Shown here one piece after another: positions 10,976 to 40,226 of a stretch of DNA of 64,000 bases; the stretch's first letter is position 1, and each line of letters starts with the position of its first letter. A model generated the notes under the pieces. The model was not told the origin of the DNA. It made no database searches and worked only from the letters and a program-made list of their open reading frames with translations. A program made the translations under genes and the position numbers. The stretch comes from Streptomyces albofaciens JCM 4342 (GTDB lineage Bacteria > Actinomycetota > Actinomycetes > Streptomycetales > Streptomycetaceae): assembly GCF_008634025.1 (NCBI RefSeq), contig NZ_PDCM01000002.1, forward strand, positions 2,691,001 through 2,755,000, written 5' to 3'.

Positions 10976-11048
10976 TACCCCCGACCGGATTCGAACCGGC
11001 GCTACCGCCTTGAGAGGGCGGCGTGCTAGGCCGCTACACAACGGGGGC
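10976..11048 (-). tRNA. tRNA-Glu (anticodon CTC), copy 1
   Basis: The 73-base cloverleaf starts GCCCCCG on the minus strand. The anticodon arm has CTC in the loop, the T arm contains GGTTCGAATCC, and the 3' acceptor strand CGGGGGT makes a G1-U72 pair with discriminator A. CCA is not encoded. It is the last gene of a five-tRNA unit and is identical to the two other Glu copies. Confidence 0.95.
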
Positions 11049-11085
11049 TCGCTCTGCAGAACCGCAGTTGACCTGCGGTTTCGCG

Positions 11086-11157
11086 CTGGGCTACCAGGAC
11101 TCGAACCTAGACTAAATGAACCAGAATCACTCGTGCTGCCAATTACACCATAGCCCA
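11086..11157 (-). tRNA. tRNA-Gln (anticodon CTG), copy 1, with a G-U anticodon-stem variant
   Basis: The 72-base cloverleaf starts TGGGCTA and ends TAGCCCA with discriminator G. The anticodon loop is TTCTGGT. Its anticodon stem is AGTGA/TCATT, whereas the other Gln copy has ACTGA/TCAGT, so this copy carries a G-U pair where the other has C-G. CCA is not encoded. Confidence 0.95.
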
Positions 11158-11173
11158 TGGTGGTTTAGACCAG

Positions 11174-11246
11174 TACCCCCGACCGGATTCGAACCGGCGC
11201 TACCGCCTTGAGAGGGCGGCGTGCTAGGCCGCTACACAACGGGGGC
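11174..11246 (-). tRNA. tRNA-Glu (anticodon CTC), copy 2
   Basis: This 73-base gene is identical in sequence to the other two Glu copies, with acceptor GCCCCCG, anticodon CTC and no encoded CCA. It lies 16 bases upstream of tRNA-Gln copy 1 in the transcript. Confidence 0.95.
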
Positions 11247-11309
11247 CCTAGCGATCCTTGCATCGTCACATCCGGGAGCGACCCGAAGGTGACGGAGAGA
11301 AAGGATCTG

Positions 11310-11382
11310 TACCCCCGACCGGATTCGAACCGGCGCTACCGCCTTGAGAGGGCGGCGTGCTAGGCCGCTACACAACGGGGGC
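11310..11382 (-). tRNA. tRNA-Glu (anticodon CTC), copy 3
   Basis: This 73-base gene is identical to the other Glu copies. It is the second gene of the transcript, 40 bases after tRNA-Gln copy 2 and 63 bases before Glu copy 2. Confidence 0.95.
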
Positions 11383-11422
11383 CTGGTACTGCGCGATCAA
11401 GAAACCTTCAGAAGATCTCTTG

Positions 11423-11494
11423 CTGGGCTACCAGGACTCGAACCTAGACTAACTGAACCAGAATCAGTCGTGCTGCCAATTACACCATAGCCCA
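11423..11494 (-). tRNA. tRNA-Gln (anticodon CTG), copy 2
   Basis: This 72-base gene is the first of the unit and has a fully Watson-Crick anticodon stem (ACTGA/TCAGT), loop TTCTGGT and discriminator G. The unit order on the minus strand is Gln, Glu, Glu, Gln, Glu. Confidence 0.95.
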
Positions 11495-38326: not shown

Positions 38327-39937
38327 TTACTCCTGCGGCTCGACGCCCGCCCGCATCAGCCCGTACGCGTACGCGTCGTCCAGCGCCTGCCAGGACGCCG
38401 CGATGACGTTCTCCGCGACGCCGACCGTGGACCACTCCCCCTGTCCGTCGCTGGTGGACACCAGGACACGGGTGGTCGAACCGGTGCCCAGGCGGCCTTC
38501 CAGGATGCGGACCTTGTAGTCCACCAGCTCCAGCCCGGCCAGCTGCGGGTAGATCTGCTCCAGGGCCACCCGCAGCGCCCGGTCCAGCGCGTGCACCGGA
38601 CCGTTGCCCTCGGCGGTGGCCACCAGCCGCTCGCCCTTGGCCCACAGCTTCACGGTCGCCTCGTTGGCATGCGAGCCGTCCGGCCGGTCCTCGACGATCG
38701 CCCGCCAGGACTCCACCTCGAAGTACCGGCGCGGCCGGCCCTCCACCTCCTCGCGCAGCAGCAGCTCGAACGAGGCGTCGGCGGCCTCGTACGTGTACCC
38801 GGCCAGCTCGCGCTCCTTGACCCGCTCCACCACCCGGCCGACCAGCTCCCGGTCGCCGCTCAGGTCGAAGCCCAGCTCCTTGCCCTTGAGTTCGATGGAG
38901 GCCCGCCCCGCCATGTCGGAGACCAGCATCCGCATGCTGTTGCCGACCAGCGCCGGGTCGATGTGCTGGTACAGGTCCGGATCGACCTTGATCGCGGAGG
39001 CGTGCAGCCCGGCCTTGTGCGCGAAGGCCGAGACGCCCACGTACGGCTGGTGGGTGGACGGGGTGAGGTTGACGACCTCGGCGATGGCGTGCGAGACCCG
39101 GGTGGTCTCGGCCAGCTTGCCCTCGGGCAGCACCCGGCGCCCGTACTTCAGCTCCAGGGCGGCCACGACCGGGAAGAGGTTGGAGTTGCCGACGCGCTCG
39201 CCGTAGCCGTTGGCGGTGCACTGCACGTGGGTGGCGCCCGCGTCCACGGCGGCGAGGGTGTTGGCCACCGCACAGCCGGTGTCGTCCTGGGCGTGGATGC
39301 CCAGGCGCGCCCCGGTGTCCGCCAGCACCGTCCGCACGACGGCCGAGACCTGCGCGGGAAGCATGCCGCCGTTGGTGTCGCACAGCACGACCACGTCGGC
39401 GCCGGCCTCGCTCGCGGTCCGCACGACCTCCTTGGCGTACGCCGGGTCGAGGGCGTACCCGTCGAAGAAGTGCTCACAGTCCAGGAAGACCCGGCGGCCC
39501 TGCGCGCGCAGGTACGCGACGGTGTCCCGCACCATCGCGAGGTTCTCCTCCGGGGTGGTGCGCAGCGCCAGTTCCACGTGCCGTACGTGCGACTTGGCGA
39601 CGAGGGTGACGACCGGCGCCTGCGACTCCAGCAGGGCCGTGACCTGCGGGTCGTCCTCGACCCGCACGCCTGCCTTGCGGGTCGCGCCGAAGGCGACCAG
39701 CTGGGCGTGCCTGAAGTCGATCTCCGCGCGGGCCCGCTGGAAGAACTCGGTGTCCCGGGGGTTGGCGCCGGGCCAGCCGCCCTCGATGAAGCCCACGCCG
39801 TAGTCGTCCAGGTGCCGGGCGATGGTCAGCTTGTCGGCGACGGTCAGGTTGATGCCCTCACGCTGCGCGCCGTCGCGCAGCGTGGTGTCGAAGACGTGGA
39901 AGGCGTCGGACAACGCGGGTTCGGGTGCGTCCGTCAT
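38327..39937 (-). CDS. cimA: Citramalate synthase (2-isopropylmalate synthase-like)
   Basis: This 536-residue enzyme of the HMGL-like TIM-barrel family condenses pyruvate and acetyl-CoA to citramalate, a threonine-independent entry to isoleucine. FHVFDTTLRDGAQREGINL (metal-binding Asp and Arg) is near residue 14, then HAQDDTGCAVANTLAAVDAG near 218, QCTANGYGERVGNSNL near 240, and a C-terminal LeuA-type regulatory domain (residues 370-530) with DYKVRILEGRLGTGS. HMGL family members with DTTLRDGAQ and this length fall among CimA or alpha-isopropylmalate-type synthases; CimA is favoured by the GEFFxxR-less motif and the leader. An ATG at 39946 is an alternative start. Confidence 0.85.
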   Translation of the reverse strand: MTDAPEPALSDAFHVFDTTLRDGAQREGINLTVADKLTIARHLDDYGVGFIEGGWPGANPRDTEFFQRARAEIDFRHAQLVAFGATRKAGVRVEDDPQVTALLESQAPVVTLVAKSHVRHVELALRTTPEENLAMVRDTVAYLRAQGRRVFLDCEHFFDGYALDPAYAKEVVRTASEAGADVVVLCDTNGGMLPAQVSAVVRTVLADTGARLGIHAQDDTGCAVANTLAAVDAGATHVQCTANGYGERVGNSNLFPVVAALELKYGRRVLPEGKLAETTRVSHAIAEVVNLTPSTHQPYVGVSAFAHKAGLHASAIKVDPDLYQHIDPALVGNSMRMLVSDMAGRASIELKGKELGFDLSGDRELVGRVVERVKERELAGYTYEAADASFELLLREEVEGRPRRYFEVESWRAIVEDRPDGSHANEATVKLWAKGERLVATAEGNGPVHALDRALRVALEQIYPQLAGLELVDYKVRILEGRLGTGSTTRVLVSTSDGQGEWSTVGVAENVIAASWQALDDAYAYGLMRAGVEPQE

Positions 39938-40042
39938 GCTGCTCATGGCTCCTGTCGGGTCTCGGTTTACCGGAATGACCGGTTCCACCGCCCCCTCATG
40001 GTCCCTCGCGCTCCGCCGCCGGCGATGGGTGGGCCGGAAACG

Positions 40043-40071
40043 AAAAGACCCCTCGCGGATGCGAGAGGTCT
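40043..40071 (-). terminator. Intrinsic terminator in the cimA leader region
   Basis: On the minus strand AGACCTCTCGC (40071-40061), loop ATCC, GCGAGGGGTCT (40056-40046) and TTTT make an 11-bp stem with one G-U pair and a T-run. It lies about 97 bases upstream of the cimA start, 55 bases past the MIIG leader ORF and 230 bases past the MFS gene, so it could attenuate cimA or end the MFS transcript. Confidence 0.75.
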
Positions 40072-40092
40072 GCGCGCGGGTCTGGGACGACG

Positions 40093-40129
40093 GTGACCGC
40101 GCCGTACTCGGTACGTACGGGGCGGTCAC
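40093..40129 (-). promoter_or_regulatory. Pause-type hairpin overlapping the leader ORF stop
   Basis: On the minus strand GTGACCGC (40129-40122) pairs perfectly with GCGGTCAC (40100-40093), and inside it CCGTAC pairs with GTACGG (40120-40115 and 40107-40102). Its 5' arm overlaps the stop codon of the MIIG leader ORF (40126-40128), so a terminating ribosome would block it. Confidence 0.55.
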
Positions 40130-40161
40130 TGCGGACCGGCGCGCCTGCTGCCAATAATCAT
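40126..40161 (-). CDS. Candidate Ile-rich leader peptide of cimA (11 codons)
   Basis: The minus strand from ATG at 40161 reads MIIGSRRAGPQ then TGA, with codons ATG ATT ATT first. ATT is a rare Ile codon in such GC-rich genomes. A hairpin starting at the stop codon and a terminator follow before cimA. No purine-rich ribosome-binding site precedes the ATG, so the peptide is a candidate only. Confidence 0.5.
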   Translation of the reverse strand: MIIGSRRAGPQ

Positions 40162-40216
40162 GGCGAGGGAGGGCACGGGCGTCAGTTTGCCATACGTTCC
40201 CGGAGGGGCGCGGGGT

Positions 40217-40226
40217 GTCTCACAGT
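40217..40226 (-). promoter_or_regulatory. Half-site matching the NdgR candidate operator, upstream of cimA
   Basis: On the minus strand ACTGTGAGAC is identical to the right half of the palindrome at 8701-8710. It lies 56 bases upstream of the cimA leader ORF start, as the similar ilvB element does, so NdgR may bind here. Confidence 0.5.

Follow-up and report, generated by a model that had tools for sequence, protein, structure and literature searches.

A candidate isoleucine-dependent transcription attenuator in front of the citramalate synthase gene in Streptomyces and many of its relatives

Does the citramalate synthase gene cimA carry a leader that adjusts its transcription to the supply of isoleucine? 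The window, that is the whole stretch of 64,000 nucleotides of Streptomyces albofaciens JCM 4342 that was analysed, contains cimA at 38327..39946 on the minus strand, to which all the features described below belong. The gene was identified with TIGR00977 (624.1 bits for a cut-off of 450), starts with an ATG at 39946 preceded by CAGGAG and is 98% identical in its best segment to cimA of an S. rimosus strain (locus L034). A sequence-only reading of this DNA had proposed an attenuator upstream of the gene, built from a short open reading frame (ORF) with two Ile codons, a stable hairpin with its 5' arm over the stop codon, and a terminator of 11 bp with TTTT, and all of these parts are present. 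The ORF ATG ATT ATT...TGA is found at 40161-40126. The hairpin, called P2 (40093..40129), is an inner hairpin of Streptomyces type with the arms GTGACCGC (40129-40122) and GCGGTCAC (40100-40093), the first of which begins at the leader stop codon. The predicted intrinsic-type terminator (40043..40071) consists of 11 bp, with the arms A-GACCTCTCGC/GCGAGGGGTC-T at 40071-40046, and of a TTTT ending at 40043. The frame of cimA is itself open upstream into the leader (38327-40129, 600 aa from GTG 40129), and automatic annotation may therefore hide the attenuator. Far from this locus, the window also holds a cluster of five tRNA genes at 10976-11494.

We compared the leader among 107 distinct leaders of a Streptomyces set (110 leader loci minus three identical copies, with one Actinacidiphila included); the counts given over 106 leaders omit L063, which has one extra codon. 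The ATG at 40161, proposed earlier as the start of an 11-codon ORF, is replaced by GTG in one relative and by ACG in 20 of the 107, and because of the latter we do not take it as the start. In all of the 107 leaders but L063, a GTG or ATG precedes the first ATT by exactly 18 nt, and the leader ORF, which is thus conserved in Streptomyces, is found beyond the genus too. As judged by these alignments, its most likely start is the GTG at 40176-40174, 15 nt upstream of the ATG, so that the reading frame and Ile codons of the earlier proposal stand while its length becomes 16 codons. The ORF from GTG to TGA (40126..40176) encodes MPSLAMIIGSRRAGPQ (here and below, peptides are written up to the stop codon), with the Ile codons at 40158-40153.

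The sequences in front of the start codon are informative as well. A -10-like box, CAAACT (40184..40189), lies 7 nt before the GTG, and 89 of the 106 Streptomyces-set leaders have a [CT]AxxxT box before the start, 83 of them at 6 nt and six at 7 nt, with none in the remaining 17. Among the 85 leaders that were fetched from outside the family (eight more class matches adjoining cimA are not among them, and the downstream cimA is not shown for L286), xAxxxT occurs 5-11 nt before an ATG or GTG in 80. According to a passage of the S. lividans survey (PMC8079986), the -10 box TAnnnT of leaderless transcripts is located on average 6.3 nt ahead of the transcription start. Given this spacing and the box 6-7 nt before the start codon, the cimA leader transcript is most likely leaderless, with a transcription start that we infer at the GTG or immediately beside it. 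Such a transcript fits the lack of a ribosome-binding site before the ORF, noted in the sequence-only reading as a difficulty, and would explain it. Further upstream, a TGAGAC motif (40217..40222) stands about 46 nt 5' of the leader start codon. All 106 leaders of the Streptomyces set contain TGAGA[CT], 104 of them at 45-46 nt ahead of the start, and 12 of the 85 leaders outside the family have it within 60 nt upstream; it is also visible before several of the paralogous leaders described below. It is possibly an activator or repressor site. We take SCO5529 to be the locus tag of cimA. NdgR was considered as the protein that binds TGAGAC and was rejected: its published 15-bp motif differs, and SCO5529 is not mentioned in the sections of that paper at hand (PMC4340878).

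The RNA of this region is predicted to fold far better than chance, with -74.3 kcal/mol compared to -53.35 +/- 3.63 for shuffled sequences (z -5.77; 0 of 200 shuffles as good). The minimum-energy fold contains an outer helix, P1, that links the leader ORF to the terminator. Its 5' strand, GCGCGC-C-GGTC (40134..40144), lies within the ORF and pairs with the 3' strand GACC-C-GCGCGC (40072..40082), which the terminator follows immediately. In the window P1 thus encloses P2 and ends flush against the terminator. We then looked at covariation in 37 leaders, two of them paralogues and the other 35 from class members outside the family. P1 and the terminator pair in 94.8% of the cells, a value that drops to 40-58% when one partner is slid by 1-3 columns. 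Changes on both sides were observed in 13 of 20 pairs (6 of 9 in P1, 7 of 11 in the terminator) versus 6.1 +/- 1.3 in shuffles, and in 60 cells versus 14.8 +/- 4.1, in an alignment that stems partly from the same sequences as the structure and so favours it. At its foot, P1 has a nearly invariant GCGC in each strand. Both the structure and these pair changes place a predicted intrinsic terminator between the leader ORF and the gene.

In order to score the Ile codons outside the family, starts were assigned by a rule blind to codons (xAxxxT, with ATG or GTG 5-11 nt on, near the start of the model match). Five of the 85 leaders had no start by this rule and were not counted, leaving 80. Ile-Ile was found in frame in 68 of these and at least one Ile in 78, compared to 0 and 0 for Ile-Ile and 3 and 7 for any Ile in the two other frames. 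Ten of the 12 leaders without Ile-Ile have isolated Ile codons, several of them beside Thr; in the other two, L282 and L287, the rule chose a wrong GTG, and both are misses in this test and were left out of the computations on 78 leaders described below. Peptides such as MTYSLIIS, MSASTEIIG, VLHRTVIIIT, MTHWMIII and VAQALIIG illustrate this group. ATT and ATC interchange among the Ile codons, which points to the meaning of the codons. The cimA leader thus has a short ORF whose control codons encode the amino acid that the pathway supplies, and its Ile-Ile, confined to one frame and matched to the downstream gene, supports the attenuator reading proposed earlier. In individual folds, P1 and the terminator are neighbours in all 80 leaders, separated by 0 nt in 63, 1 nt in 14, 2 nt in two and 3 nt in one, and 66 of the 80 have their first Ile codon 11-14 nt ahead of P1.

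The C-terminal end of the peptide deserves separate attention. The commonest leader peptides are MLSFAMIIGSRRAGPQ (41 leaders, plus one with an ATG start) and MLSFATIIGSRRAGPQ (17). Among the 106 leaders of the Streptomyces set, seven have Met and one has Thr at codon 8, while CGC GCC GGT is identical in 107 of 107 and the following CCG is kept in 105. These bases encode RAGP in frame in 96 of 106 leaders, and RAG is encoded in several leaders outside the family. R-A-G-P is a SecM-like arrest motif, and such conservation would be expected if the ribosome stalled on an arrest peptide through this end and not through a shortage of Ile. However, in 10 of the 107 leaders a deletion of one base (nine leaders) or two bases (one leader) shifts the frame beyond codon 9 or 10: RAGP is lost from the peptide, and the bases GCGCGCCGGTCCGCAGTG are nearly unchanged. 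In all ten, the Ile codons are still in frame with the start (Ile-Met in L098), and a stop codon is regained at nt 55 (nine) or nt 58 (one), within the P2 region. Thus, this stretch and the C-terminal codons that it contains appear to be conserved as the P1 strand of the RNA. Moreover, the stop codon begins 1-5 nt before P1 in 58 of the 80 leaders outside the family, with ends such as IIS, IIT and III, and inside P1 in 20, mostly RAG types; the remaining two are L282 and L287 with their wrongly chosen GTG. The arrest peptide, not being conserved in one frame, was dropped as a candidate, and we consider it very unlikely.

The Ile codons could also act untranslated, in an RNA that binds a tRNA or a metabolite in the manner of a T-box or a riboswitch. 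A small hairpin, P0 (GCC..GGC, 40150..40164), which is a minor element of the leader, presents the AUU codons in its loop and could form in most of the Streptomyces-set leaders (4 of 4 pairs possible in 81 leaders, 3 of 4 in 16 and fewer in nine of 106); T-boxes do exist before actinobacterial ileS, according to excerpts of PMC1262725. Nevertheless, a search of the leader against Rfam gave chance matches only, with no T-box or known riboswitch family, and the start codon, the single reading frame and the stop codon are preserved across leaders, all of which would be superfluous for a non-translated RNA. We therefore regard this explanation as highly improbable and retain a translated leader.

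How widely is the leader distributed? A DNA match to it was found in 120 of 121 genomes of the genus, the exception, G080, also being without a cimA match. A covariance model built from 27 leaders (R1) detected the element in 121 of 121 genomes and 17 of 17 genera of the family, matches being counted without a check per gene; at the level of the class it detected the element in 97 of 197 genomes. A second model (R2), built mostly from R1 matches and mostly from class leaders, found it before any gene in 132 of 197 class genomes and 68 of 90 genera, some weak matches around E 1e-4 included, and in 43 of 198 genomes of a phylum draw that includes genomes of the window's own genus. A2, A4, R1 and R2 all come from related sequences, and the E-values of both models are rough. 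Among the matches listed, 106 of 150 cimA genes are preceded on their own strand by an R2 match at a distance of 35-237 nt (16 of 17 genes in the genus and 90 of 133 outside it) and 44 have none; five such upstream regions, searched without filters, gave nothing better than E 1. Conversely, 50 of 54 class loci outside the family (L158-L211) encode cimA downstream as determined by tblastn. The others are L208 and L211, with an ilvB-like gene judged by eye, and L191 and L197, with small proteins whose weak ACT_4 matches are under the Pfam cut-off.

These data bear on the suggestion, already raised by the sequence-only reading, that the terminator merely ends the upstream MFS gene and that the ORF is there by chance. 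The MFS gene does end about 230 nt upstream of the terminator. But in 61 of 79 leader loci the upstream sequence, taken over roughly 2 kb, contains no MFS homologue, and across the class the leader, the promoter-like box and the Ile frame are conserved directly before cimA. We give this explanation practically no weight.

Does the amino acid encoded by the leader follow the gene behind it? We analysed 50 further matches, namely those judged by eye not to adjoin cimA together with the phylum matches, which are a part of all such matches; in some of them, no start codon was found in the stretch searched. By tblastn against five references, 49 of them precede ilvB (27), ilvA (9), leuS (8), leuA (3) or cimA (2), and the remaining one precedes leuB as judged by NCBIfam. 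The leader codons differ by gene: Leu for leuS (VRTGLLLTEPR, MRARLLLTGPR) and leuA (MTNLLLT), Val/Leu/Ile for ilvB (VRTRILVVMQRAG, VRFGILVLH) and Ile-Thr for ilvA (VQLHLMAIT, VPLFLMVIT). The leuB leader reads MSFSQVVIIR.

Changes of gene are also seen within single groups. In nine genomes of one family, f18 (L224, L228-L230, L234, L236, L242, L243, L253), the element stands before ilvA, and Ile-Thr leaders ending in MAIT, MGIT or MVIT precede threonine ammonia-lyase. Three cimA upstream regions of this family, searched without filters, contained no such leader; from its sequences, the attenuator seems to have changed gene there. In addition, ten genomes of the genus (L115-L124) carry a paralogous Ile leader elsewhere; it has one or two Ile codons, L116 and L118 being those with just one. 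The L117 copy precedes an orphan protein with a CimA-type LeuA_dimer domain, the L124 copy has a truncated cimA behind it, and L116, L120 and L121 are followed by small proteins that gave no Pfam or NCBIfam match where searched. The proteins behind these five leaders are possibly regulatory offshoots of cimA.

With the parts of the leader, their conservation, the frame-specific Ile codons, the covariation and the match between codons and gene all computed, we consider with good confidence that the cimA leader is a ribosome-mediated transcription attenuator controlled by the supply of Ile. Streptomyces and many of its relatives most likely turn on isoleucine production by this means when isoleucine is short. 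In the mechanism that we propose, transcription would begin at or beside the GTG, a ribosome would initiate on the leaderless mRNA and would read two or three Ile codons in most leaders, mostly 11-14 nt before P1. With ample charged tRNA-Ile, it would reach the stop codon and cover most or all of the P1 5' strand; P1 would be prevented, the terminator would form alone and transcription would stop. With Ile in short supply, the ribosome would stall at the Ile codons, P1 would form and RNA polymerase would continue into cimA.

We examined whether the geometry of the leaders allows this. The leading edge of a ribosome lies at +15 from the P-site codon. With this footprint assumed, a ribosome at the stop codon covers half or more of the P1 5' strand in 78 of 78 leaders and the entire strand in 49, and one waiting at the first Ile codon leaves P1 free but for 0-2 bases. 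The leader thus contains a conserved RNA structure, P1, that depends on the position of the ribosome, again under the assumed footprint. Free during a stall and covered at the stop, P1 is the structure expected in starvation and must, if the regulation makes sense, oppose the terminator.

How P1 could do so is less obvious, for the sequence-only reading saw no antiterminator pairing and our computations on 27 and 78 leaders agree with it. Duplexes of each terminator arm with the upstream sequence were computed in 27 leaders, and no antiterminator was found. In the window, the terminator 3' arm can pair with the leader start CCCTCCCTCGCC, and in many cimA leaders the P1 5' strand could pair weakly, at about -10 kcal/mol, with the terminator 5' arm; the partners in such pairings differ between leaders and are not kept in the paralogues. 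We also computed the pairing of the terminator 5' arm at the moment before the 3' arm is made. In the stalled state, taken as its best case with the ribosome edge at the start of P1, this arm is more than half paired in 0 of 78 leaders (mean 0.13). Its pairing is higher once the ribosome stands at the stop codon (mean 0.40, with 23 of 78 leaders above 0.5). Extension of P1 into the terminator could capture one or two bases in only 7 of 78 leaders and shares none in the other 71. The pairing with the terminator 5' arm that marks a classical antiterminator was therefore not found in the cimA leaders.

With no pairing that excludes the terminator, we propose a steric block by the flush P1. Formed at the base of the terminator, P1 would hinder closure of the stem in the RNA exit channel, and its GCGC clamp would have to open first. 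Taken alone, this step, in which P1 blocks the terminator without sharing bases with it, is a tentative proposal, rather less likely than not. Alternatively, Ile attenuation may operate with P1 as no more than a pause hairpin that keeps ribosome and polymerase in step, read-through then depending on an alternative structure or a protein that we do not see. This overlaps with the preferred explanation in everything except the steric step. The lack of any pairing by which P1 excludes the terminator speaks in its favour; on the other hand, P1 is the only conserved structure found with the expected dependence on ribosome position, and in 77 of 80 leaders no more than 0-1 nt separates it from the terminator. 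We consider a mere pausing role somewhat doubtful. Extending the steric block by P1 to the other genes, we suggest, again tentatively, that Actinomycetota may share one modular attenuator chassis without an antiterminator. In it, a GCGC-footed hairpin flush at the terminator would block sterically, and the codons before the hairpin would be rewritten: Ile for cimA, Ile and Thr for ilvA, Val/Leu/Ile for ilvB, Leu for leuA and leuS.

If the leader works as proposed, cimA, with which the citramalate route to isoleucine begins, would have its own specific control across much of a class known for producing antibiotics and amino acids, and scattered, poorly understood actinobacterial attenuators such as those of ilvB and leuS would be tied to one RNA design. 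The missing antiterminator becomes a testable question, namely whether a hairpin that merely touches a terminator can prevent termination. The leader may also serve as an engineering part, the codons before P1 seeming to have been exchanged in evolution.

Classical attenuators, such as those of E. coli trp and his, have control codons, a ribosome whose position picks the structure, a terminator before the gene and an antiterminator that overlaps the terminator; unlike in these, no overlapping antiterminator was found in the cimA leaders. We found no earlier report of a cimA attenuator in the open-access papers searched, which do not include Lopatovskaya et al. 2010, the most probable source of such a prediction. 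In particular, cimA, citramalate and ilvA are absent from the text of Seliverstov et al. 2005, and the portions at hand of PMC11109978 name neither cimA nor citramalate. Excerpts of the S. lividans TK24 survey (PMC8079986) give eight amino-acid attenuators, none of them at cimA; a possible reason is the annotation of the 600-aa cimA frame, open to 40129, into the leader. Term-seq of S. clavuligerus revealed 150 premature transcription units, as stated in a passage of PMC8269248. In S. coelicolor, replacement of the regulatory codons in front of ilvB had no effect, as reported in part of PMC1262725, so not every such leader need work in this way. The LEU element before actinobacterial leuA resembles the cimA leader by its branched-chain leader peptide and conserved RNA structure. 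It is described, in the same excerpts (PMC1262725), as a pseudoknot in which Leu codons and the Shine-Dalgarno box of leuA form the base stem, and by this description it is set apart from the cimA leader with its hairpin and predicted intrinsic terminator.

The nearest studied case is ilvBNC of C. glutamicum (the ilvB-II motif, a 'fast attenuator'). As presented in sections of PMC11857589 and PMC10272879, it likewise has a branched-chain leader peptide on a nearly leaderless mRNA and neighbouring hairpins, there an antiterminator and a terminator. In contrast to the cimA leader, a boundary GCC is common to its antiterminator and terminator (PMC11857589, in part), and a third hairpin acts as an anti-antiterminator in the portion of the work available; no base is shared through P1 extension in 71 of 78 cimA leaders, which thus lack this boundary. 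The gene differs too, being cimA here, with Ile as the control codons. Finally, candidate attenuators have been described for leuS, ilvB and trp of Streptomyces (Seliverstov et al. 2005, and table 4 of the S. lividans TK24 survey, both in the parts at hand), with a short leader ORF, control codons, hairpins and a terminator. Several of these leaders are leaderless as here, and leuS and ilvB copies of the cimA-leader chassis were found by the same model.
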